From Synechococcus sp. UW140 (GTDB taxonomy: Bacteria; Cyanobacteriota; Cyanobacteriia; PCC-6307; Cyanobiaceae): DNA of 64,000 nucleotides. Numbering within the stretch: the first letter of the stretch is position 1; each line of letters starts with the position of its first letter. The stretch is taken from NCBI GenBank assembly GCA_945875915.1, contig CAMCMT010000003.1, forward strand, positions 1 through 64,000, in the 5' to 3' direction. This document shows positions 1 to 20,533 of the stretch, piece by piece. The notes under the pieces were generated by a model. That model was not told the DNA's origin and searched no databases. It was given only the letters and a program-made list of their open reading frames with translations. Made by a program: the position numbers and the translations under genes.

Positions 1-399
1 GGTGGCCCACACCTGATCCACTGCCGTGACCATGCTGAGATCCACCAGGCAGGTGAATCGCACGGATGGATGACCAGGGACCGTGGTGCGCGGTTTCTGG
101 TAGATCGCCCGTAAACCCATGCGCTGCATGAGGTTTCGTACTCGGTCACGGCTGATCGGGATCCCATCTCTGGCCAGGTAGTCCACCATCCTGCGGCTGC
201 CGCTGCAGGGATCTTCCAGGTAGAGAACATCAATTCTGGCCATGATCCGCAGCGTCGATTCCCGCACCGGTATGGGCTGGTAGTACAGCGTGGATCGAGC
301 CAGACCCAGCAGCACGCATTGGCGGCTGACGCTGAGATCGGGGTGGCCTGAATCGACCAGCTTGCGTAGTTCACGGGCATCAGAGCAGCTGAGACTTTT
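1..399 (-). CDS. IS3-family transposase OrfB, 5' part (cut by window edge)
   Basis: Reading the minus strand from the A-tract near 399 to position 1 gives an open frame with SDARELRKLVDSGHPDLSVS and then LGLARSTLYYQP, the usual start of the IS3-family OrfB integrase subunit. It continues through SGSRRMVDYLARDGIPISRD and LMQRMGLRAIYQKP (the HTH_21-like region) and reaches DQVWAT at the edge, where family members have the first catalytic Asp of the DDE triad. The catalytic core lies outside the window, so activity cannot be judged. No separate start codon is obvious; in this family OrfB is usually made as an OrfAB fusion. Confidence 0.85.
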
Positions 400-667
400 T
401 TTTGAGCCACTCCAGCTCCATCTGCAGCCGGCCGATCTGCTGGAACAGCCCTGCTTCCTTGGCCTGCCCGTCCTCCTTGTCCTTGGTCTGCTTGCCCCTG
501 ATGAACAGCTCGCTGGCTCCATCAAGCAGCTGCCGCTTCCAATGGCTCACCTGGATTGGATGGATGGCATGGTCGGCGGCGATCTCCTGGATCGTCTTGC
601 GGCCACTGATCGCCTCCATGGAGACCCTGGCCTTGAACTCGGGACTGTGGGTGCGGCGCTTACTCAT
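380..667 (-). CDS. IS3-family transposase OrfA
   Basis: A 95-aa protein starting MSKRRTHSPEFKARVSMEAI. It is the DNA-binding subunit that recognises the ends of the element. It has the HTH_Tnp_1 layout: helix-turn-helix around TIQEIAADHAIHPIQVSHWK (residues about 25-45), then a leucine-rich helix (LFQQIGRLQMELEWL) that family members use for oligomerisation with OrfB. I chose the ATG at 667 because homologues begin with this MSKRR/K-type motif; the frame stays open upstream to 739. It ends at TGA 382-380, just past the A8 tract. The outer terminal inverted repeat should lie between about 760 and 800 but I could not define it, since the other end is not in the window. Confidence 0.88.
   Translation of the reverse strand: MSKRRTHSPEFKARVSMEAISGRKTIQEIAADHAIHPIQVSHWKRQLLDGASELFIRGKQTKDKEDGQAKEAGLFQQIGRLQMELEWLKKKSQLL
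395..403 (-). promoter_or_regulatory. A8G slippery tract at the orfA/orfB junction
   Basis: On the minus strand the sequence is CTC followed by eight A and a G. OrfA reads it as Leu-Lys-Lys-Lys-Ser. The OrfB frame reads through the same tract and is in the +1 (equivalently -2) phase, not the -1 phase normal for IS3 elements. Slippage by RNA polymerase on the A8 run, or a one-base change in the run of this copy, would explain it. Confidence 0.6.
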
Positions 668-892
668 CGATGGAGATGCCCTGAAATCCAGAGATTGCAC
701 TTGAGTGACCAAACCGCTGCATCCTGATAGGTACTTCACAAGTTCCAGCAGGATCGCCTCTGGGGCACTTTGGTGTATTTTTCACTTTCTCAAGGCAGCA
801 CCATTCAATGAACCTGATTGGGTGACAAGCCCCGCTGATCCCGCTCGCCGGCTTGCCAGAATCATTGGCTGATTCCTGCCCCTCAGCCGCCG

Positions 893-3800
893 ATGCCACT
901 CACCGCCCTGGTTCGCCAGCTCCAGCAGGTGACCCTCACCGGTGAAGTGCTGGAGCGCAGCAAGCGGCCCGAGCGGCTGCGGCTCAGCGGTGCCGGCCGG
1001 GCGGCCCGGGGCCTAATCAGCAGTGCCCTGGCCTCGGCCGCCGAAGCCCCCCTGCTGGTGGTGGTGCCAACCCTGGAGGAGGCAGGCCGCTGGGCATCCC
1101 TACTGGAGCTGATGGGCTGGAGCAGCAGCCTGCTTTACCCCACCAGCGAGGGCTCCCCCTACGAACCCTTCGATCCCACCAGCGAGATCACCTGGGGCCA
1201 ATTACAGGTGCTCAGCGAGCTGCTGGATGGCGGCTCCAACCGCCTGGCGATCGTCGCCACCGAGCGGGCCCTGCAACCCCACCTGCCGCCGCCAGCGGCC
1301 CTCAAGGCCCACTGCCACAGCCTGCGCAAGGGCGACAGCGTCAACCTGGAGGCCCTCGGCCAGACCCTCAGCCGCCTCGGCTATGAACGGGTCGCCTCGA
1401 TCGAGCAGGAGGGCAGCTGGAGCCGCCGCGGCGACATTGTGGATGTCTTTCCGGTCAGTGCCGAACTGCCGGTGCGGCTGGAGTTCTTCGGCGAAGAGCT
1501 CGAAAAACTGCGGGAATTTGACCCCGCCAGCCAACGCTCGCTGGATGCGATTGAGGTGGTGCGCCTCACCCCCACCGGCCATGGCCCCTTGATCGCCGAT
1601 GCCCTGCGAGACTCGATGCCGGCAGGGCTCGAGCAGCTGCTCAGCCCCGAGGCCCTCGACCAGTTGCTGGAGGGCGGCACCCCCGAAGGCATGCGGCGCC
1701 TACTGGGACTGGCCTACAGCCAGCCGGCCTCCCTGCTCGATTACCTGCCAGCCAGCACCCTGGTCGCGATCGATGAACGCCGCCATTGCCTGGCCCATGG
1801 CCAGCAGTGGTTTGACCATGCCAGCTCCCACTACGGCGATGTCATTGCCGAGCTCGATAGCGCTGGCCAAGGCGCCGAAACCCCTGGCAGCCTGCCAGGG
1901 GTCAGCCTGCTGTCGGCCTGTCTGCACATCAGTCCCCGCGAGGCCCTGGAGCAGGTCGAAAGCTTTGCCGGCTTCGACCTGGCCGAACTGAGCGAAACCG
2001 ATCAGCACGCCAACAGCTTTGACCTGGCCAGCCGTTCGGTACCGGCCTATCCCAATGCCTTTGGCAAGTTGGCAGCCCTGGTGCGCGGCTTCCAGGCGGA
2101 CAAAGCACGGGTGTGGCTGCTCTCGGCCCAGCCCTCTAGGGCGGTGGCCCTGCTGGAGGAACACGACTGCATCAGTCGCTTTGTGCCCAATCCCGGCGAT
2201 TTCGCCTCAATCAACCGGCTGATTGAACAGAACACTCCGGTTGCCCTTAAAACCCGGGGCACGGCCGAACTCGAAGGCTTGCAACTACCGGCCTGGAAGC
2301 TGGTTTTAATCACGGATCGGGAATTCTTTGGCCAGCAGTCGTTAACAGCCACGGGCTATGTGCGCCGGCGTCGCAAGGCGGCCAGCCGCACGGTGGATCC
2401 CGGCAAGATGCAGCCCGGCGATTTTGTCGTGCACCGGAACCACGGCATCGGCCGCTTCCTCAAGCTGGAAAAACTAGTCATCAGCGGCGAATCCCGCGAT
2501 TACCTGGTGGTGCAATACGCCGATGGCCTGCTACGGGTGGCCGCCGACCAGCTCGGCAGCCTGGGACGCTATCGGGCCAGCACCGATGCGCCCCCCGAAC
2601 TCAACCGCATGGGCGGCACGGCCTGGGCCAAGGCCAAGGAACGGGCCCTAAAGACCGTGCGCAAGGTGGCCCTCGACCTGGTCAAGCTCTACGCCGAGCG
2701 GCACCAGGCGCCGGGCTTTGCCTTCCCCGCCGATGGTCCCTGGCAAAACGAACTCGAAGACTCCTTTCCCTACGAACCCACCCCCGACCAGCTCAAGGCG
2801 ATCAGCGATGTCAAGCGGGACATGGAGCGCCCCCAGCCCATGGACCGCCTGGTGTGCGGCGATGTGGGCTTCGGCAAAACGGAGGTCGCGATCCGGGCCA
2901 TCTTCAAGGCAGTAACCGCTGGCAAACAGGTGGCCCTACTGGCCCCCACCACGGTGCTGGCCCAACAACATTGGCGCACCCTCAGCGAACGTTTCGCCCC
3001 CTATCCCCTCAAGGTGGCCCTGCTCAACCGCTTCCGCACCACGCTGGAACGTAAAACGATCCTGGCGGGCCTGGGCGAAGGCAACGTCGATGTGGTTGTG
3101 GGCACCCACCAGCTGCTGAGCAAGGGCACCAACTTCAAGCAACTTGGATTACTAGTGGTGGATGAAGAACAGCGCTTTGGTGTTAATCAGAAGGAAAAGA
3201 TCAAGGCCTTGCGTAAGGACGTCGATGTGCTGACCCTTTCGGCCACACCAATCCCCCGCACCCTCTACATGAGCCTCTCAGGCGTGCGCGAAATGAGCCT
3301 GATTACCACGCCACCGCCGCTGCGGCGGCCGATCAAAACCCACCTGGCCGCCCTCGATGAGGAGGCGGTGCGCAGCGCCATCCGCCAGGAACTCGATCGC
3401 GGCGGCCAGATTTTCTATGTGGTGCCGCGGGTGGAGGGCATCGAGGAGGTGGCCGCCCAGCTGCGCCAGATGCTGCCAGGCATGCGCCTACTGGTGGCCC
3501 ATGGCCAGATGGCCGAGGGCGAACTGGAAAGCGCCATGGTGGCCTTCAATGCCGGCGAAGCCGACCTGATGCTCTGCACCACGATCGTGGAGAGCGGCCT
3601 CGATATTCCCCGGGTGAACACCATTTTGATCGAGGACGCCCACAAATTTGGCCTGGCCCAGCTCTATCAATTGCGCGGCCGGGTCGGCCGCAGCGGCATC
3701 CAGGCCCACGCCTGGCTCTTCTATCCGGGCAATGCCTCCCTCTCGGAAGCGGCCCGCCAGCGGCTTCGCGCCATCCAGGAATTTGCCCAGCTGGGGTCCG

Positions 3801-4492
3801 GCTACCAGCTGGCCATGCGCGACATGGAAATCCGCGGGGTTGGCAATTTGCTCGGGGTAGAACAGAGCGGCCAGATGGAAACGATCGGCTTCGATCTCTA
3901 CATGGAGATGCTGCAGGAATCCCTAGCCGAGATCCAGGGTCAGGACATCCCCGCCGTTGAGGACACCCAGATCGACCTACCGATCACCGCCTTCATCCCG
4001 GGCGATTGGATCACCGAAAATGACGAGAAAATCGCCGCTTACCGGGCCGCCGCCGAATGCGCCAGCATGGACAATCTGGTGGAACTGGCAGTCGGCTGGG
4101 TGGATCGCTACGGCGCCATCCCCGCCCCGGTGCAAAGCCTGCTGCAATTGATGCAGCTGAAGTTGTTGGCCAAGCGCTGTGGCTTTTCCCGGATCAAACC
4201 GGAGAAGCCGAATATTGCCCTGGAAACGCCCATGGAGGAGCCAGCCTTCCGCCTGCTACGCCAGGCCCTACCCCAACATCTGCACGGACGCCTCGTTTAC
4301 CAGGGCGGCCCAGGCAGCACCGCCAAGGTGTTGGCTCGGGGCTTGGGGGTGTTGCCCATCGAGAAGCAACTTGAACAACTGATGGAGTGGCTCAAACTGA
4401 TGGCCGACCAGCTGCCCGGCAGCGATGGCCTCAGCGAACAGCAACGGCGCCAACAACTCGAAGCCCGTAATGCCGAGGTGCTGCGTGTTTGA
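893..4492 (+). CDS. mfd: Transcription-repair coupling factor Mfd
   Basis: A 1199-aa ATP-dependent translocase, normal length for Mfd. It removes RNA polymerase stalled at DNA lesions and recruits UvrA for nucleotide excision repair. Visible parts: a UvrB-like N-terminal region with SRRGDIVDVFP near residue 177; the CarD-like polymerase-interaction domain with GDFVVHRNHGIGRF near 508; a RecG-like motor with Walker A GDVGFGKTE (about 655), DEEQRFG box (about 756), SATPIPRTL (about 782) and motif VI QLRGRVGRS (about 924); and a C-terminal TRCF domain. It starts at ATG 893, 150-200 nt from the IS element. The downstream lipoprotein gene begins at or just after its stop. Confidence 0.97.
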   Translation: MPLTALVRQLQQVTLTGEVLERSKRPERLRLSGAGRAARGLISSALASAAEAPLLVVVPTLEEAGRWASLLELMGWSSSLLYPTSEGSPYEPFDPTSEITWGQLQVLSELLDGGSNRLAIVATERALQPHLPPPAALKAHCHSLRKGDSVNLEALGQTLSRLGYERVASIEQEGSWSRRGDIVDVFPVSAELPVRLEFFGEELEKLREFDPASQRSLDAIEVVRLTPTGHGPLIADALRDSMPAGLEQLLSPEALDQLLEGGTPEGMRRLLGLAYSQPASLLDYLPASTLVAIDERRHCLAHGQQWFDHASSHYGDVIAELDSAGQGAETPGSLPGVSLLSACLHISPREALEQVESFAGFDLAELSETDQHANSFDLASRSVPAYPNAFGKLAALVRGFQADKARVWLLSAQPSRAVALLEEHDCISRFVPNPGDFASINRLIEQNTPVALKTRGTAELEGLQLPAWKLVLITDREFFGQQSLTATGYVRRRRKAASRTVDPGKMQPGDFVVHRNHGIGRFLKLEKLVISGESRDYLVVQYADGLLRVAADQLGSLGRYRASTDAPPELNRMGGTAWAKAKERALKTVRKVALDLVKLYAERHQAPGFAFPADGPWQNELEDSFPYEPTPDQLKAISDVKRDMERPQPMDRLVCGDVGFGKTEVAIRAIFKAVTAGKQVALLAPTTVLAQQHWRTLSERFAPYPLKVALLNRFRTTLERKTILAGLGEGNVDVVVGTHQLLSKGTNFKQLGLLVVDEEQRFGVNQKEKIKALRKDVDVLTLSATPIPRTLYMSLSGVREMSLITTPPPLRRPIKTHLAALDEEAVRSAIRQELDRGGQIFYVVPRVEGIEEVAAQLRQMLPGMRLLVAHGQMAEGELESAMVAFNAGEADLMLCTTIVESGLDIPRVNTILIEDAHKFGLAQLYQLRGRVGRSGIQAHAWLFYPGNASLSEAARQRLRAIQEFAQLGSGYQLAMRDMEIRGVGNLLGVEQSGQMETIGFDLYMEMLQESLAEIQGQDIPAVEDTQIDLPITAFIPGDWITENDEKIAAYRAAAECASMDNLVELAVGWVDRYGAIPAPVQSLLQLMQLKLLAKRCGFSRIKPEKPNIALETPMEEPAFRLLRQALPQHLHGRLVYQGGPGSTAKVLARGLGVLPIEKQLEQLMEWLKLMADQLPGSDGLSEQQRRQQLEARNAEVLRV

Positions 4493-4496
4493 AAAC

Positions 4497-5798
4497 GTGG
4501 CCCAACGCCCAGCCCTTAGCAAGGGGCCCACACCAGCCAAGCGGCGCCGGCAGGCAGCCTGGCCAAAACTGGTCCTAGGCCTGACCCTGGCCCTGGGCTT
4601 GCAGGCCTGCAGCGAGCCAAGGTCTTTGCAACAGCAAACCCTAATCATTTATGTCGATCCCCCCGATTCTGCCACCCTCAACAAAAACAATCTCCACGCG
4701 TTATGGGATCCCCTGCTGAAGGCCTACAAACGCTTGCATCCAGGCGTCCATCTCAATTTAAATTTCGTCGTCTTCCAAGACCAGCAACTCAAAGAGGAGT
4801 TGCGCCGCCGCAATAGCCGTGGATTGGGCCCCGACCTGATCTTGATCAACGCCTCAACGGCGATCGATCTTCACAATGAAGGGCTCATTTCCCGGATCCA
4901 GGTGTCCGCAGACGTGCAAAACAGCCTGCAACCCTGGATTCTCTCCCGGGTGCAGGTTCCAGGAGGCCTAGCGGCCCTGCCCGTTGCCCTAGAACCCCAA
5001 CTCAGTTGTTATAATCGAACACGCATCCCCAGCCCGCCAGCCACCCTCGAGGAGTTACTGCAATTGGCAGCCTCGGGGCGGCGCATTGGCCTCTCCATCT
5101 TTCCCAAAAGCATCTGGTGGAGCACCGGTCCCTTGGGAGCGAACCAGGCCCTGATGCGGCGGCTCGAGGCACCGCCCGGTAGTAAGGAACGGATCAGTAA
5201 TAGCGATCAGGTCGCCATCACAACCTGGCTGAGCTGGTTGCGAGAAGCCTCTTTACAGAGCCATGTGAATTTCTTCAATAACGATGAAGACTTGCTTAAC
5301 GGCCTGGGCAAAGGCCAACTGGATTGGACTAGTTGTTTGAGTTTTAACCTGCCAAGTCTAAAGCGCCAGATGGGGGACAACCTGGGAGTCTCCAGCCTGC
5401 CTAGAGGCCCCCACGGCTTTGCCTCGCCCAACTCCCTGCTAAGGGTGCTGGCCTTCGGTGTCAATTCTTCCGGGCAACAACGCCAACAAGCCATGGAGCT
5501 TGGATTGCTGCAATTAAACCCGTTGATGCAGCGTTCCATGACTCTCAATAGCGAGCAAGTTCTGCCTGTCAACCGCTTTGCACCGGCACCCATTGCCAGT
5601 TCCGCAAAGCTGAAGGTGCTGGTCAATGCCCAGGAGCAATTCCAGCAAAGTTCCTTGTTATCCCGATCGCCCTTGGCCCTCAATCGATTGGACAATCACA
5701 GCATGGAGCTGGAAGCTCTGTTGACCCAGGTGGTCGTCGATGTGATCGGGCCCGAACAAGCAAGCGCGCGCTTGATCAAGATTCTGAGGCAACCCTGA
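4497..5798 (+). CDS. Extracellular solute-binding lipoprotein (family 1), orphan
   Basis: About 433 aa. A basic n-region (AKRRRQ), a hydrophobic stretch and the lipobox LGLQAC predict a lipoprotein anchored on the periplasmic side of the membrane. The rest reads like a family-1 ABC solute-binding protein: GLGPDLILINASTAIDLHNE, LAALPVALEPQLSCYN, ATLEELLQLA and LKVLVNAQEQF. The substrate cannot be read from sequence. I chose GTG 4497, four bases after the mfd stop; ATG 4470 in the same frame would overlap mfd. Its stop overlaps the next start (TGATG at 5796-5800), so it is coupled to an MscS channel gene. No permease or ATPase gene is adjacent. Confidence 0.8.
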   Translation: MAQRPALSKGPTPAKRRRQAAWPKLVLGLTLALGLQACSEPRSLQQQTLIIYVDPPDSATLNKNNLHALWDPLLKAYKRLHPGVHLNLNFVVFQDQQLKEELRRRNSRGLGPDLILINASTAIDLHNEGLISRIQVSADVQNSLQPWILSRVQVPGGLAALPVALEPQLSCYNRTRIPSPPATLEELLQLAASGRRIGLSIFPKSIWWSTGPLGANQALMRRLEAPPGSKERISNSDQVAITTWLSWLREASLQSHVNFFNNDEDLLNGLGKGQLDWTSCLSFNLPSLKRQMGDNLGVSSLPRGPHGFASPNSLLRVLAFGVNSSGQQRQQAMELGLLQLNPLMQRSMTLNSEQVLPVNRFAPAPIASSAKLKVLVNAQEQFQQSSLLSRSPLALNRLDNHSMELEALLTQVVVDVIGPEQASARLIKILRQP

Positions 5799-7006
5799 TG
5801 GGCGATCTGCTGGTGGCGATGATCAGCTGGTTGGGCTTCCTGCAAAGGCCGGATGTGCTCAAGCAGCTCCTGGCGATCGGCCTAGCGCTGCTGCTGGGAC
5901 GCTCGCTGGCCCACTCGCCCTGGTGGGGCCACCTGCCCCTCTTCGCCCAGTTGCGGCGTCCCCCCATCCCCCTGGTTGAGGAAGCGGCCCTGCTGCTGAC
6001 GATCCCCTTGCTCTCGATGGCGGGCCAAGGGAGTGGTTTGGTCCTGCTGGTCGCCCAGATCAAGGCCGCCTGGCTGGGCCTGGGCCTGGTGGAGCAGCAA
6101 CTGCTCGAGCGCTGGCTGGGTCATGAGATGCGCCTGCGACTCTCAAGCCGGCTGCTGCGGCCAGCCCTACTGATTGCCACCCTGCTGATTGGCCTGGACG
6201 CGGTGGACAACCTGCAGGAATTGGCAAGCGTGCCCCTGGGCCGCCTCTTCGGCTCCGTCATCAACCTGGGCCACTTCGTCCAGGTGTTAGGGGTGCTCTA
6301 CGTCTTAGCCGTCGGCTCTGGTCCACCAGCAAGCGCCCTCGGCTGGCTCTGCCAGAGGGGTCTGGGCATGGGCGACGGCAGCCGCCGTGCCCTGGAATTG
6401 ATCCTGCGCTACTTCCTAGTCAGCATCGGCATCGTCTGGGCCCTCGGCGACTTGGGCTTCAACCAGACCGGCCTACTCGCCATCGCCGGCGGCCTCTCGG
6501 TGGGCCTGGGCTTTGGCGTTAAGGAAGTGTTCTCCAACTTCATCAGTGGCCTGTGGCTGCTGTTTGAAGGCTCGGTGCGGCCGGGGGAGGTGCTGATCAT
6601 TGATGGCGAAGCCTGCGAAGTGCGCCGGCTAGGGCTGCGGGCGGCCGTGCTTTGGCGCCGCAGCGACAACGCCGAGCTGCTGATCCCTAACCAAACCTTC
6701 TTCACCTCCACCACGGCCACCTTCACCGGCAGCGACCGGATGCGCCAAGGCATCCTGACGGCAACGGTGACGAACACCCTCCCCCCTGCCGAGGTGCTCG
6801 CGCGCCTGGAAGCGGTTGCCTCTGGCCTGAAGGGCGTGCTGCGCGAACCGGCAGCCATGGCCACGATCGAAAAATTTGGCGCCACCACCACCGACTACAA
6901 GCTCACCTACTGGATGCCCGATCCGCTCAGCATCCGGGAAGTGAGCAGCGAGCTGAAGTTGGCCCTATGGCACAGCTTCAGCCCCGACGAAATCATCCTG
7001 AGCTGA
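5798..7006 (+). CDS. MscS-family mechanosensitive channel protein
   Basis: A 402-aa inner-membrane protein. The N-terminal half has several hydrophobic segments (for example LKQLLAIGLALLLGRSLA and LLIATLLIGLDAV). The MscS pore helix and start of the beta domain are clear at residues about 222-265: AIAGGLSVGLGFGVKEVFSN, then FISGLWLLFEGSVRPGEVL. The soluble part follows (LLIPNQTFFTSTT), with a short C-terminal vestibule. Family members open under membrane tension and release solutes after hypo-osmotic shock. It shares a TGATG with the upstream solute-binding lipoprotein, an unusual partner for MscS. The extra N-terminal membrane segments make it longer than E. coli MscS (286 aa). Confidence 0.9.
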   Translation: MGDLLVAMISWLGFLQRPDVLKQLLAIGLALLLGRSLAHSPWWGHLPLFAQLRRPPIPLVEEAALLLTIPLLSMAGQGSGLVLLVAQIKAAWLGLGLVEQQLLERWLGHEMRLRLSSRLLRPALLIATLLIGLDAVDNLQELASVPLGRLFGSVINLGHFVQVLGVLYVLAVGSGPPASALGWLCQRGLGMGDGSRRALELILRYFLVSIGIVWALGDLGFNQTGLLAIAGGLSVGLGFGVKEVFSNFISGLWLLFEGSVRPGEVLIIDGEACEVRRLGLRAAVLWRRSDNAELLIPNQTFFTSTTATFTGSDRMRQGILTATVTNTLPPAEVLARLEAVASGLKGVLREPAAMATIEKFGATTTDYKLTYWMPDPLSIREVSSELKLALWHSFSPDEIILS

Positions 7007-7203: not shown

Positions 7204-9948
7204 ATGTCGGTGTTCCAGGCTCAATACTCAGAAGCCCTCTCGCCTGAGCACCAGCGCCTAGCGGAGGCCGACCAGGGCCGGAGGCCATGGAGAGCCTGGG
7301 GACCCTACCTGAGCGAAAGACAATGGGGCACGGTGCGCGAGGACGACAGCCCCGATGGCAATGCCTGGGAATCCTTCAGTCACGATCAGGCCAGATCCCG
7401 GGCCTACGAATGGGGAGAGGATGGCCTGGCCGGCATCAGTGATGACCGCCAGTTCCTGTGCTTCGCCCTAGCACTCTGGAATGGTAAAGATCCGATCCTC
7501 AAAGAACGCCTCTTTGGCCTCACCAATAGTGAGGGAAACCATGGCGAAGACGTCAAAGAATATTACTACTACCTGGACTCAACCCCAACGCATTCCTACA
7601 TGCGTTACCTCTATAAATATCCGCTGAATGCCTATCCCTATGGCGACCTAGTTGCCACCAACAAAGCGAGATCGCGTTTTGAGCCGGAATATGAGCTGAT
7701 CGATACTGGGATCTTCGAGAAGAATGAATACTGTGACATCGAAGTCGAATATGCCAAGGCTGGACCAGAGGATCTGCTGATCCAGATCACGGTCCACAAT
7801 CGCTCCAACCAAACGGCCAAGCTCGCCGTCTTGCCAACCCTTTGGTTTCGCAATACCTGGGATCAGGGGAGCAGTCCGAAACCCTTGATTAAGACGAAGC
7901 CCTCTCAGTCAGGCCAAGCGAGACTCCATGCAACCCATCCCGACCTTGGCGATTTTGCGCTGCACTGCAACGGGGCAGATGAATTGGTGTTGACGGAGAA
8001 CGAAACGAACACAGAAGTCATTTTCCAACAACCGAACCAATCTCCTTACACCAAATGCGGCATCAACCGCTACGTGGTTCATGGCGAGGCGGCAGCTGTT
8101 AACCCATCCCAGCAGGGCACGAAGGCTTCGGCGATTTACAACCTCTCGATTGGTGCCAATGCCTCAAGCATCATCAAGTTGCGACTGACAAAGTCATCGT
8201 CTGAAACACAAGATGACTCCGCCTATCACGATTTCAATCAGATCTTGGATCGCAGAAAGCAAGACTGCGATGACTTTTACGCCAGGGTGATGCCAGCTGG
8301 ATTCAGCGCTGAGCAAAAGCTGGTGTTCAGGCAGGCGATGGCAGGGATGCTGTGGTCCAAACAGTTCTATAACTACGACATTGCGCCCTGGCTCCTGAAA
8401 CGTGGCATTGATCCACTGGGTTTCAACAACGCCCAGGGTTTCAGGAATCAGCAGTGGCATCACATGAACAACAGTGATGTCATCTCCATGCCAGACAAAT
8501 GGGAATATCCTTGGTACGCGGCCTGGGATCTCGCCTTTCACGCAAGCACTTTTGTCTTTGTCGATCCAAGTTTCGCCAAGCAACAGCTCAGCTTGATGCT
8601 GAGCAACCAGTATCTCCACCCCAACGGGCAAATTCCAGCCTATGAGTGGAACTTCGGCGATGTCAACCCACCCGTGCATGCCTGGGCGACTTTCAATGTC
8701 TACCTGGCCGATGCGACACTCCATGGCAAGGCTGATCATCAGTGGCTAAAAGAAAGCTTTCACAAGCTTCTCATCAATTTTACTTGGTGGTTGAATCGAA
8801 AAGATGCCAATGGCAATAATGTGTTTCAAGGCGGCTTCCTTGGTCTCGATAATATTGGCATTTTTGACCGCACTGAATCACCAGAGATGGGCGGCAGCCT
8901 GGAGCAAGCCGATGGCACGGCCTGGATGGCTCTATTTGCCCAAACCATGGTGCAAATCTCTGTGGAGCTGGCCCGAAAAGATGAAACGTATCGAGAATAC
9001 CCAATCAAATTCATGAAGCATTATCTCTCAATCGCCCATGCCATGGTCAATCGCAATGCCAGCGAAAGTATGTGGGATGAAGAGGATGGCTTTTTCTATG
9101 ACGTACTCCGCAAAAACGACGACAGCTCAACACGCCTGAAAGTCAGGTCCATGGTCGGACTGATTCCCCTGTGTGCCGTCCAGGTGTTTGAGCAAGATGT
9201 CATGGAGAGGCTGCCTGAGCTCAAAGATCTGCTACTTCGGCTCCAGGACAAATTTCCAGATCTGCATAGTTCTTTTCACGATGTGAGACTTAACGGGTTT
9301 GCAGACCGGCACATGATGTCGGCTCTCGATGAGACCAATTTTCGCCGCGTGCTGAAGATCATGCTCGATCCCGATGAGTTCCTCGGAGACTTTGGGATTC
9401 GCTCGATTTCAAAACGGCACGAGAGTGAACCCTATCGCTTTGTCCATAATCAACAGGAGTTCGTTGTCCAATACCTGCCGGCCGAGTCCGATTCAGGCTT
9501 GTTCGGCGGCAACAGCAACTGGCGCGGTCCGATCTGGATGCCAGTCAACGTCATGATTATTCGCTCCTTGATTGTCTACTTCTGTTATTACGGCAAAGAC
9601 TTCCAGGTTGAATTCCCAACAGGCAGCGGCCAGTTGGCAAACCTCTATGAGATTGCCGAGCATCTCGCGGACAGAATCGTCTCTATGTTTACACGCAATT
9701 CTGAAGGTCTAAGGCCAGTCTTTGGCAACCAGCAGACCTTCCAGAGCGACCCGAACTGGAAGGATTATCTCCTGTTTTATGAGTACTTCCATGGTGACAA
9801 TGGGGCCGGTATTGGCGCCAGCCACCAGACCGGCTGGAGTGGTCTGGTCGTTAATTTGACCCACTATTTCGCCGTCAATACCCAGGACAGCCTGTTGGCC
9901 CGTGGCCCTACGGGACCAGCGCCTCAAGTGCACCAGGGCGACCGCTGA
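7204..9948 (+). CDS. GH63-type glucosidase (MGH1-like glycoside hydrolase)
   Basis: A 914-aa protein without an obvious signal peptide, so probably cytosolic. It reads like the long bacterial glucosidases of glycoside hydrolase family 63 / MGH1-like clan: an N-terminal beta-rich half (LFGLTNSEGNHGEDVKEYYY) and a C-terminal (alpha/alpha)6 barrel with PWYAAWDLAFH (about 435), QIPAYEWNFGDVNPPVHAW (about 476) and SNWRGPIWMPVN (about 769). Related enzymes act on glucosylglycerate, mannosylglycerate or alpha-glucosides; the substrate here is not known. Base composition is clearly less GC-rich than the flanking genes, with many A/T third positions, suggesting transfer or a different expression class. 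About 200 nt with no gene separates it from the MscS gene. Confidence 0.85.
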   Translation: MSVFQAQYSEALSPEHQRLAEADQGRRPWRAWGPYLSERQWGTVREDDSPDGNAWESFSHDQARSRAYEWGEDGLAGISDDRQFLCFALALWNGKDPILKERLFGLTNSEGNHGEDVKEYYYYLDSTPTHSYMRYLYKYPLNAYPYGDLVATNKARSRFEPEYELIDTGIFEKNEYCDIEVEYAKAGPEDLLIQITVHNRSNQTAKLAVLPTLWFRNTWDQGSSPKPLIKTKPSQSGQARLHATHPDLGDFALHCNGADELVLTENETNTEVIFQQPNQSPYTKCGINRYVVHGEAAAVNPSQQGTKASAIYNLSIGANASSIIKLRLTKSSSETQDDSAYHDFNQILDRRKQDCDDFYARVMPAGFSAEQKLVFRQAMAGMLWSKQFYNYDIAPWLLKRGIDPLGFNNAQGFRNQQWHHMNNSDVISMPDKWEYPWYAAWDLAFHASTFVFVDPSFAKQQLSLMLSNQYLHPNGQIPAYEWNFGDVNPPVHAWATFNVYLADATLHGKADHQWLKESFHKLLINFTWWLNRKDANGNNVFQGGFLGLDNIGIFDRTESPEMGGSLEQADGTAWMALFAQTMVQISVELARKDETYREYPIKFMKHYLSIAHAMVNRNASESMWDEEDGFFYDVLRKNDDSSTRLKVRSMVGLIPLCAVQVFEQDVMERLPELKDLLLRLQDKFPDLHSSFHDVRLNGFADRHMMSALDETNFRRVLKIMLDPDEFLGDFGIRSISKRHESEPYRFVHNQQEFVVQYLPAESDSGLFGGNSNWRGPIWMPVNVMIIRSLIVYFCYYGKDFQVEFPTGSGQLANLYEIAEHLADRIVSMFTRNSEGLRPVFGNQQTFQSDPNWKDYLLFYEYFHGDNGAGIGASHQTGWSGLVVNLTHYFAVNTQDSLLARGPTGPAPQVHQGDR

Positions 9949-17991: not shown

Positions 17992-18809
17992 TGCCAGCAG
18001 CGCCGGCCAGGGAGCCAGTCCTGCCGAAGCCAGGACCAGGAGTGTCGTCCCAGGAGCTGCCCTGGCTGGAGCTGGGCCAGATCACGGTGCCCGGCCGCGG
18101 CCGGCCGCGGCTGGATCGGGTGTCACTGGCCATCGGCGGCGGCGAACGGGTGGCCCTGCTGGGACCAAGTGGGGCCGGCAAAAGCAGCCTGCTGGCCGTT
18201 GCCAACGGCCAGCTCAAACCCACCTCCGGGTCCCTGCGCTGGCTAGGGGCCCCACCGGCGCGCTCGGGCCGGGCCCGGCGCCGCCAGCAGGCGCGCATCG
18301 GCACCCTCTGGCAGGACCTGCGCCTGATCGAGGAGCTGAGCGTGCAACAAAACCTCAATAGCGCCCGGCTGGCGACCTGGGGCTGGCCCCGGGCCCTGCT
18401 CAACTTGCTTTGGCCCCTGGACACGGCCGCCAACCGGGGGGCCCTCGCCCAGGTCGACCTGGGTGCCGAGCTGCTGGGCCAGCCGGTCAGCGCCCTATCC
18501 GGCGGCCAACGCCAGCGGGTGGCGCTCGCCCGCCTGCTGCGCCAGGACCCGGAGTTGCTCCTGGCCGATGAACCCCTGGCCAGCCTCGATCCGCGCCTGG
18601 CATCCGAGCTCCTGCAGCTGCTGCTCGACCAGGTGACCCCCCGTCGGGCCCTGCTGCTCAGCCTGCACCGCCCCGACCTCCTGGCCGGCTTTGATCGGGC
18701 CATCGGCCTGCGCCAGGGGCAGGTGCTCTTCGACCAACCCGCCTGCAGCATCAGCCCCGCCGACCTGGCGGCCCTCTATGGCGGCAAACTGCCGGACTCC
18801 GGGCCGTGA
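17991..18809 (+). CDS. ABC transporter ATP-binding protein (PhnC-like)
   Basis: A 272-aa ATPase that drives the neighbouring import system. Motifs: Walker A GPSGAGKSS (about residue 59), signature LSGGQRQRVALARLL (about 168), Walker B LLLADEPLASLDP (about 187) and the H-loop in LLSLHRPD. The N-terminal 20 residues are a proline-rich extension. The start overlaps the stop of the binding-protein gene by one base, and its own stop overlaps the GTG of the permease gene (GTGA, 18806-18809), so all three are translationally coupled. Confidence 0.92.
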   Translation: MPAAPAREPVLPKPGPGVSSQELPWLELGQITVPGRGRPRLDRVSLAIGGGERVALLGPSGAGKSSLLAVANGQLKPTSGSLRWLGAPPARSGRARRRQQARIGTLWQDLRLIEELSVQQNLNSARLATWGWPRALLNLLWPLDTAANRGALAQVDLGAELLGQPVSALSGGQRQRVALARLLRQDPELLLADEPLASLDPRLASELLQLLLDQVTPRRALLLSLHRPDLLAGFDRAIGLRQGQVLFDQPACSISPADLAALYGGKLPDSGP

Positions 18810-20533
18810 TTGCGTCTTGGATTCCAGCCTTTTGGACCCGGATTCGCAGGAGCTTGGCGGGGCGGGGCAAGGGCAAGGGGCCGAGCCCCGAACGGGCCAG
18901 AAGCGCCCAAAACGGTCCGTCCGGCGTCGCCGCACCTCTGGCAATGGTGGCCCCGGCGTTGGTGTTGATCCCGGTGCTGGTGCTGCTGCCGGGCCTGGTC
19001 CATGGCGGCGGTGTCGACCTGCTTAAAGAGTTCCTCCAGGCGGCCTTTAGCCCTTCCCTCGATCCGCTGGTGCTGGGCTCGACCGTCTCGGGCCTGGGCA
19101 TCACCGTGGGAATCGCCCTGCTGGGCTGGGCGGCCAGTGGCCTAATGGGGCTGGCCCTGGCCCTAGCCAGTTCGCGCCAGATCTGGAGCAGCTGTTGCGG
19201 CCAGACCTGGCCAGCCAACCTGCTGCGGCGGTTGTTGGCCGTGCCGCGCTCGATCCATGAGCTGCTCTGGGGATTGCTGCTGCTCCAGCTCATCGGCCTG
19301 CAACCGGCCGTGGCGATCGCCGCCATTGCTATCCCCTACGCCGCCCTAGTCGCCCGGGTGCTCAGCGACCAGATCGATGCCCTCCCCAGCGGTGCCCTGG
19401 CGGCCCTGCGCTGCGCTGGCGTGGCCGCCCCCCAGGCCCTGGTCACCGCCCTGGGGCCGCCCCTGCTACCTGGCCTGCTCAGCTATGGCGGCTACCGACT
19501 CGAATGCGCCCTGCGCAGCGCCACCCTGCTGGGGGTATTTGGCCTGGGGGGCCTGGGCACGGAGCTCAAGCTCTGCCTCCAATCCCTGGAATTCCATGAA
19601 CTCTGGACCGGCCTCTGGCTGCTCTTAGCGGTGATGCTGCTGCTGGAAACTGGCCTGGCGGGCCTGCGCCGCCGCTGGTTAATGCCCCGCCGCCTGGGCT
19701 TGGGGGGGCTGACCTTCACCCCCCTGGGCCCCGAATCCGGCACCGGGACCAGGGGGAAGGGCCAGACAGCCCTTCCGGACGACCTGGGCCGCCGCGGCCG
19801 CGAGCTGGTGCTGGCCCTAGTGGTGCTGGGGCCGCTGCTGGTCTGGCTGGCCCGGGCCATGGGCGTGCAGCCCTTGGCCCTGCTGCACTGGCAACCGTTG
19901 CCCAACCTGGGCGGCAGCTCCTGGGCCAGTGTCCTGGCCCTGCCCTGGCCCCAGCTCGTGGGCAGCACCCTGCTGCTGACCCTGGTGGCTGCGGGCTTGG
20001 CGGTGGGGCTTGCGCCCCTGCTGCTGCTGGTGATTGCCCCTTGGCCCTGGGCGAGGCCCCTGCTGCAACTGACCTGGGCCCTGGCCCGCCTCTGGCCGCC
20101 GCCCCTCAGCGCCCTACTGCTGCTGTTGCTTCTCAAACCGGGCCTGGTCACGGCCGCCCTGGCCCTGGGCTTCCACAACCTGGGCATCCTCGGCCGCCTA
20201 CTGCTCGAAGCCAGCGACGATTACCAGGCCCCGGCCGAGATTGCCCTGCAGGGAGCGGGTGTCGGCCCGCGGCTGGCCCTGTTCTATGGCCGTTTCAGTG
20301 GCCTGGCCCGCAGTTATTTGGCCTATGGGGCCTACCGGAGCGATGTGATGCTGCGCGAGAGCGTGGTGGTTGGTCTCGTGGGGGCGGCGGGGCTGGGCAC
20401 CCAGCTCCTGGAGAGTCTCAGCAGTTTTGCCTGGGACCAACTCCTAGGCCTACTGGTGGTTTACGCCCTACTCACCTTGGTGGGGGAAGATCTCAGCGAC
20501 CGGGCCCGGCTCCGGCTCCTATCCCCCGCCTGA
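18806..20533 (+). CDS. ABC transporter permease, two PhnE-like domains fused
   Basis: A GTG-started 575-aa membrane protein with two binding-protein-dependent permease domains in one chain. Domain 1 spans about residues 40-290 and has its EAA-type loop at ALRCAGVAAPQALV with YRLECALRSATLLGVFGLGG after it. Domain 2 spans about 335-575, with EIALQGAGVGPRLAL and YRSDVMLRESVVVGLVGAAG. Classical PhnE proteins carry one domain and dimerise; here one polypeptide can form the whole pore. It completes the substrate-binding protein / ATPase / permease set. The linker (about 290-330) is proline- and glycine-rich. Confidence 0.9.
   Translation: MIASWIPAFWTRIRRSLAGRGKGKGPSPERARSAQNGPSGVAAPLAMVAPALVLIPVLVLLPGLVHGGGVDLLKEFLQAAFSPSLDPLVLGSTVSGLGITVGIALLGWAASGLMGLALALASSRQIWSSCCGQTWPANLLRRLLAVPRSIHELLWGLLLLQLIGLQPAVAIAAIAIPYAALVARVLSDQIDALPSGALAALRCAGVAAPQALVTALGPPLLPGLLSYGGYRLECALRSATLLGVFGLGGLGTELKLCLQSLEFHELWTGLWLLLAVMLLLETGLAGLRRRWLMPRRLGLGGLTFTPLGPESGTGTRGKGQTALPDDLGRRGRELVLALVVLGPLLVWLARAMGVQPLALLHWQPLPNLGGSSWASVLALPWPQLVGSTLLLTLVAAGLAVGLAPLLLLVIAPWPWARPLLQLTWALARLWPPPLSALLLLLLLKPGLVTAALALGFHNLGILGRLLLEASDDYQAPAEIALQGAGVGPRLALFYGRFSGLARSYLAYGAYRSDVMLRESVVVGLVGAAGLGTQLLESLSSFAWDQLLGLLVVYALLTLVGEDLSDRARLRLLSPA

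Follow-up and report, generated by a model that had tools for sequence, protein, structure and literature searches.

A Solute-Binding-Protein-Like Lipoprotein Encoded with an MscK-Type Channel in Cyanobacteria: a Candidate Periplasmic Gating Subunit

A lipoprotein resembling solute-binding proteins and a channel of the MscS superfamily are encoded next to each other in the Cyanobacteria. We suggest, with a probability of about 0.52, that the lipoprotein acts in trans on an MscK-type channel, as its periplasmic sensor or gating subunit; the contact between the two proteins, the ligand and the effect on gating are what we infer from comparisons of sequences and models. We consider it nearly certain that the two genes work as one functional unit.

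Results

The Gene Pair in Its Locus

The pair was noticed in a stretch of 64,000 nucleotides from Synechococcus sp. UW140, referred to here as the window. This DNA is of the Synechococcus/Cyanobium type, and the nearest named relatives of its channel, among the best 80 of 103 confirmed loci, are in Synechococcus MAGs. An earlier note on the window had described a binding lipoprotein gene that shares a TGATG with an MscS-type gene, and both genes are present with that overlap (Table 1). The order of genes is mfd (893-4492), lipoprotein, channel, a GH63/MGH1 hydrolase (7204-9948) and an MFS transporter, as identified by Pfam; none of the neighbouring genes that adjoin the pair (mfd, GH63/MGH1, MFS) belongs to an ABC system by the same Pfam assignment. 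Besides the start of the lipoprotein gene used here, a GTG at 4485 offers an alternative.

Table 1. Features of the lipoprotein-channel gene pair, in positions of the window.
Feature	Position	Strand	Description	Basis
Solute-binding-protein-like lipoprotein	4497..5798	+	433 aa from GTG 4497; stop TGA 5796-5798	
Lipobox LQAC	4599..4610	+	Cys codon 4608-4610 (residue 38)	sequence
Cys171 codon	5007..5009	+	invariant; possible disulfide partner of Cys280	
Trp208 codon	5118..5120	+	invariant; candidate ligand-stacking residue in C-lobe helix	
Cys280 codon	5334..5336	+	invariant	
TGATG shared by both genes (stop/start)	5796..5800	+	TGA 5796-5798, ATG 5798-5800	sequence
MscS-superfamily channel	5798..7006	+	402 aa; 7 predicted TM helices, N-terminus outside	Pfam
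N-terminal part typical of paired channels	5798..6142	+	approximately residues 1-115	profile match starts, conservation
Pore helix region	6467..6571	+	residues 224-258, core GGLSVGLGFG..KEVFSNFISG	per-segment conservation; alignment to MscK

Conservation of the Pair

Searched alone in 151 genomes of the family, the lipoprotein gave 72 matches in 60 genomes, 70 of them directly upstream of a channel match on the same strand. The gap between the two matches is 2-209 nt in 68 of these and 416 and 731 nt in the other two, and of the two unpaired lipoprotein matches one is a fragment and the other lies close to the end of a contig. Among the channel matches listed at 86 bits or more in the family genomes, 70 of 73 are paired and the other three are fragments. 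A pattern scan with the channel alone covered 84,980 species genomes; this kind of scan, which also constitutes our cover outside the Cyanobacteria, finds close relatives. The lipoprotein lies directly upstream in all 80 loci retrieved by the channel in this way (the best 80 of the 103 confirmed). Of 82 pairs inspected, 71 have overlapping genes, with an overlap of 4 nt in 65 pairs and of 1 nt in the other 6, a count that takes the channel start nearest to the lipoprotein stop and hence leans towards overlaps. Natural fusions of lipoprotein and channel were absent from the 82 pairs, and a plasmid collection held no match to the pair at 1e-20.

Across 386 genomes of the phylum, profiles built from the pairs (thresholds of at least 160 bits for the lipoprotein and E <= 1e-60 for the channel) detected the lipoprotein family in 47 genomes, and the same 47 carry the paired channel type. 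All 55 copies counted in this sample are adjacent and in one gene order. The count excludes lipoprotein-profile matches of 125 bits and below as well as a decayed remnant in one genome (G090), treats three frameshifted pieces in another (G413) as one copy, and is a lower bound on copy number, with at most four candidates per genome scored. Six cyanobacterial families carry the pair (our labels f1, f6, f11, f13, f19 and f22), and tandem copies keep a pair-pair arrangement (locus L232). Chance association of the two genes is excluded, and the outcome that the earlier note had named as a refutation, a chance pairing in a single lineage, is not what is seen. In G413 the lipoprotein frame is broken and the channel frame is open, so that the channel may work alone in this genome.

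No description of a lipoprotein-MscS pair was found in the literature by titles and the beginnings of abstracts, with subscription journals mostly outside the scope, and the relevant passages of five papers (PMC8670252, PMC10897207, PMC7522525, PMC9361551, PMC9653487) make no mention of it.

The Channel

The channel matches the Pfam families MS_channel_1st and MS_channel_2nd, both above the curated cut-off (PF21088, 29 against 23.1 bits; PF00924, 35.9 against 20.2 bits), which places it in the MscS superfamily. Its best match in the PDB is MscK (7uw5), with residues 185-374 aligned to 871-1059 at E 3e-21; against the NCBIfam MscK equivalog it scores 107.1 bits, under the cut-off of 991 bits. 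The predicted topology agrees with the AF2 model (pLDDT 85.7) and with the loop charges. Cytoplasmic loops one and two have on average 3.9 and 3.6 lysines plus arginines, versus 0.2 and 0.5 for two periplasmic loops; the N-terminus and the third cytoplasmic loop (1.3 each) are non-discriminating.

The N-terminal part sets the paired channels apart. In 49 genomes their profile matches begin at positions 1-32, and no match of another MscS gene begins before position 99; when a single channel sequence served as query, a few other MscS genes were matched weakly from positions 76-81 onwards. W11, R17 and Q23 are conserved in the N-terminal helix, predicted to be periplasmic, and in the turn that follows it, and the first TM helix is predicted to start at about residue 18.

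The Lipoprotein

The Pfam match of the lipoprotein to SBP_bac_1 reaches 23.8 bits, below the curated gathering cut-off of 26, and 25.2 bits in the genome-wide search against the same cut-off; it also matches MalE-type chains. Its AF2 model (pLDDT 89.8) has a complete two-lobe, MBP-like fold and superimposes on GacH (3jzj) with a VIA Z of 35.5 and an rmsd of 2.7 over 352 residues. The cysteine of the lipobox is kept in 65 of 72 aligned relatives, and five of the other seven have, as judged by eye, a hydrophobic N-terminal stretch that lacks a lipobox, so the membrane anchor seems to be kept across relatives; in the remaining two, the start chosen by rule leaves too little N-terminus to judge.

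Cys171, Cys280, Trp208 and Trp247 are identical in all 72 alignment rows and in 17 of 17 further lipoprotein sequences, nine of which come from other families and some of the other eight of which may duplicate alignment rows. Position 277 is Trp in 71 of the 72 rows and Tyr in all nine sequences from other families. The two cysteines could form a disulfide, and Trp208 is a candidate cleft residue for ligand stacking, a role read from its position relative to MBP. For solute binding by the lipoprotein, the one suggestive feature is this invariant aromatic residue.

Covariation and Co-inheritance

The earlier note further proposed that the lipoprotein touches the periplasmic face of the channel, and for this claim covariation gave no support: APC-corrected mutual information showed no preference for the periplasmic positions of the channel over its cytoplasmic ones (p = 0.89), in a test that is weak with its 79 pairs, an effective number of 56 and 41 variable periplasmic channel positions. 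The N-terminal helix of the channel accounts for 18 of the top 200 covarying pairs versus 11 expected. Its excess is not counted as support for contact, since the large cytoplasmic part is enriched too (92 versus 62 expected).

The trees of lipoprotein and channel largely agree for 62 pairs (r = 0.86 versus at most 0.24 in 1000 permutations), with 23 splits shared of the 32 and 29 that are well supported and 3 of the 32 in conflict. This agreement shows co-inheritance, which any operon gives anyway; shared trees and overlapping genes alike are to be expected of an operon, a point that counts against the explanation we favour.

Importer Permeases Near the Pair and Elsewhere

The earlier note had stated that the pair comes without an ABC permease. 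This is borne out at nearly all loci, with an importer permease adjoining the pair in one of 80, but it fails for Synechococcus WH7803 (L134), where a double-domain permease and an ATPase lie directly upstream, and it does not extend to the whole genome of the window's strain, which encodes a MalG/UgpE-type permease on another contig. The neighbour test compared 16 ORFs from the permease loci of the window's genome with the ORFs of the 80 loci, and permeases unlike those queries can be missed by it. Nine of the 80 loci matched the queries, L134 alone with an importer-type permease: L139, L084, L133, L105, L108 and L082 matched as ABC ATPases, L114 has the exporter-like ABC_membrane_2 type, and L095 was matched as PurK because one query ORF was PurK. 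A permease of the WH7803 type occurs in 9 of 67 pair-bearing genomes, always on another contig, several of the assemblies being fragmented. In the window, the permease-domain match closest to the pair in the genome scan (19208-19645, 30.7 bits) lies 12 kb downstream of it, and a direct Pfam scan of the 575-aa ORF that holds it (18806-20533) returned nothing; 14 further permease-domain matches are on other contigs of this genome.

The MalG-type permease was followed separately. At a threshold of 270 bits or more it is present in 57 of the 60 pair-bearing genomes of the family, that of the window included, so an importer role is possible in the window's strain; the three pair-bearing genomes that lack it are 76-82% complete. 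Outside the family it was detected (E <= 1e-8) in 14 of 21 pair-bearing genomes and went undetected at that threshold in the other seven, which all belong to one genus and are 99-100% complete. In three of the seven (G247, G366, G432) the channel match crosses one stop codon, and the open frames, at 438-447 aa, are as long as others. Two of the seven genomes have 20 and 26 permease-domain matches, from which 30 genes were retrieved and 20 classified. The types were Opp, nitrate, taurine/nitrate, sulfate, molybdate, phosphate, glycine-betaine and amino-acid, with none of the Mal/Ugp type among these 20; most of the other ten look like counterparts, in the second genome, of classified ones. With filters off, the best score of the MalG-type query against the 30 permeases was 10.4 bits (L253, taurine type); as a positive control, the query recovered its own sequence and a second permease from the genome it came from (21 bits). 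The seven near-complete genomes, all of one genus, rule out an importer of the MalG type as the general partner of the lipoprotein. On the same evidence the second refutation named by the earlier note, a lipoprotein always linked to a distant permease, does not hold for permeases of the MalG type.

Neighbouring Genes

The flanks of the pair vary. They hold mfd in the window's genus, genes for valyl-tRNA synthetase, an AbrB-like protein or a 2OG-Fe(II) oxygenase elsewhere, and in other families an alpha/beta hydrolase, a Proton_antipo_M (NDH/Mrp-type) protein, deoxyhypusine synthase or lipoate ligase. We clustered the three nearest ORFs on each side, using simple ORF calls of which some are surely not genes; both flanks measure at least 3 kb in 53 of the 80 loci. 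As candidates for a conserved third gene, single-linkage clusters reached 34 of the 80 loci but were chained, and they resolved into communities that span no more than 19, 18, 16, 16 and 15 loci. Cluster representatives are AbrB-like, 2OG-Fe(II) oxygenase or valyl-tRNA synthetase, or are without a Pfam match, and a Pfam tally of 145 nearest neighbours gave 11, 11 and 8 for these three, respectively, among the best 25 of 75 families. The GH63/MGH1 hydrolase was considered as a clue to the ligand and set aside; it adjoins the pair only in the window and in one close relative (L063). With no neighbour common to more than 19 of the 80 loci, the pair looks like a portable two-gene module.

Discussion

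Proposed Mechanism and Alternative Explanations

We suggest that lipoprotein and channel work as one unit in which the tethered binding protein acts on the channel, an anchored lipoprotein supplying in trans the periplasmic regulatory layer that MscK carries covalently. The lipoprotein would sit over the periplasmic mouth of the channel and touch the N-terminal helix and the hairpin of residues 137-156; a periplasmic solute would set its open or closed state, and this state would shift the tension at which the channel opens. Sugar-type compatible solutes are the first ligand candidates, given the sugar-binding kind of fold and the presumed release of such solutes by MscS channels. The effect could be either (i) a brake on osmolyte loss once enough has leaked, or (ii) a threshold matched to the external solute. 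The steps of this scheme deserve different degrees of confidence: we consider it probable that the channel, and not an importer, is what the lipoprotein acts on, and for the tuning of gating by a ligand we see the odds as even. A more elaborate version, in which up to seven tethered lipoproteins would assemble on an MscK-like pore into a periplasmic gating ring that can detach, and a periplasmic osmolyte would reset the venting pressure, is put forward more tentatively.

The main competitor keeps the two proteins apart. The lipoprotein would serve a distant ABC importer that takes up again the compatible solutes released by the channel, the genes being linked for co-expression only. Cyanobacteria are known to recapture compatible solutes by Ggt-type systems, the model shows a sugar-type binding fold that is intact, and most pair-bearing genomes within the family, and two thirds of those outside it, encode a MalG-type permease elsewhere. 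Against this, the same core permease is found in 27 of 91 family genomes that lack the pair, and it is 73-98% identical to that of the window's strain, whereas the lipoproteins are 27-47% identical outside the genus; the seven near-complete genomes without a detectable MalG-type permease, and the near absence of importer permeases beside the pair, with the WH7803 type on a different contig each time, point the same way, and we regard this explanation as rather unlikely. A purely structural part for the lipoprotein, as a cap, tether or chaperone for assembly that has lost ligand binding, seems to us less likely again. The tight coupling of the genes and the membrane anchor of most relatives would suit it, and the two invariant cysteines could lock the fold; yet both lobes are retained in the model, and Trp208 is invariant at a cleft-like position, where a dead binding protein should drift. 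It is also conceivable that the lipoprotein delivers captured solute into the open MscS-type pore, considering that binding proteins normally pass their solute to a membrane pore and that the channel is the only constant neighbour, but import by this route would have no energy source, and a non-selective pore, as MscS channels are generally understood to be, would dissipate gradients, which makes it highly improbable. Our preferred reading remains that of a periplasmic gating subunit.

If this reading is true, a solute-binding protein used as a gating subunit would couple the leaked solute to the opening of the valve, and a binding protein outside ABC systems would gate an MscS channel in trans. 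It would also explain a binding protein unlinked to an importer in many freshwater and marine picocyanobacteria. The pair bears on the question why such genomes retain several MscS paralogues. PMC9361551 reports the distribution of Ggt and freshwater/marine patterns of MscS genes in cyanobacteria, and these patterns could be read again with the lipoprotein partner in view. Salt raises the levels of three MscS proteins in Synechocystis 6803, that of Slr0639 14-fold (PMC8670252); these may or may not be of the paired type.

Comparison with Known Systems

The lipoprotein shares with MalE/CUT1-type binding proteins such as MBP and GacH the complete two-lobe fold (Z 33-35 for the model), and differs from them in its two invariant cysteines, in its linkage to a channel and in having an importer permease beside it in only 1 of 80 loci. 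We know of no such pair of cysteines in MBP. For a binding-protein fold that gates a channel, as proposed here, GluR0 and the ionotropic glutamate receptors offer a likeness; they do so in one fused chain and belong to the potassium-channel superfamily, whereas the pore here is of the MscS type and the lipoprotein is a separate protein.

Ligand control of MscS-type channels is known, to our knowledge, only for external ions, in the case of MscK, or for cytoplasmic nucleotides. The bacterial cyclic-nucleotide-gated MscS channels resemble our proposal in placing an MscS pore under the control of a ligand. Their ligand domain is cytoplasmic and fused, whereas the channel described here has no cyclic-nucleotide-binding domain by Pfam, which finds only MS_channel families at E <= 0.01. 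A cAMP-regulated MscS is mentioned in the passages of PMC7522525 that touch on these channels.

Among solved structures, MscK (KefA) of E. coli comes closest to the channel in its pore and beta domain. MscK responds to force and external K+, a precedent for control by tension together with an outside ligand; it has a periplasmic gating ring, eleven TM helices and, in the same chain, a periplasmic domain of some 500 residues (PMC9653487). In contrast, the channel of the pair has 402 residues, seven predicted TM helices and no large periplasmic N-terminal domain of this size (~500 aa), and it is accompanied by a separate lipoprotein with the MBP fold.

Gene neighborhood of the pair

The lipoprotein and MscS-superfamily channel genes have differing neighbors across the loci carrying them (table below). 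The hydrolase gene following the pair in the window, whose product is possibly a glucosyl/mannosylglycerate hydrolase, adjoins it elsewhere only in L063, a locus from a close relative. In the Synechococcus WH7803 row, the second MscS gene differs from the paired channel, and a second MscS gene likewise comes after the pair in L230. A direct Pfam scan of the 575-aa ORF in the window returned no match. The transposase-like ORF lies upstream of mfd and is probably an insertion-element remnant.

Features in the window and in other loci carrying the pair
Locus	Coordinates	Strand	Feature	Detail
Window	383-739	-	Transposase-like short ORF	HTH_Tnp_1, 33.7 bits
Window	7204-9948		GH63/MGH1-like hydrolase, 914 aa	Immediately 3' of pair
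Window	18806-20533		575-aa ORF	Weak permease-domain match, 30.7 bits (genome scan)
L101	1914-4417		Typical cyanobacterial pair	Contig labelled Bifidobacterium breve MAG
L134 (Synechococcus WH7803)	1600-8457		Gene row	ABC permease, ATPase carrying AAA_assoc_C, lipoprotein, paired channel, second MscS gene
L230	7595-8713		Second MscS gene	
L235 (genome G413)	3600-6161		Pair	Channel frame open; lipoprotein frame broken into several ORFs

Variation in the pair itself

The split lipoprotein frame in G413 reflects either a sensor that is decaying first or an assembly error. For L101, the bin, or the label on it, is probably wrong. Judged by eye, the lipoproteins of five loci (L069, L076, L104, L107 and L111) carry a hydrophobic N-terminal stretch in place of the lipobox, and a similar N-terminus is seen outside the window's cyanobacterial family, in those of L220 and L236.
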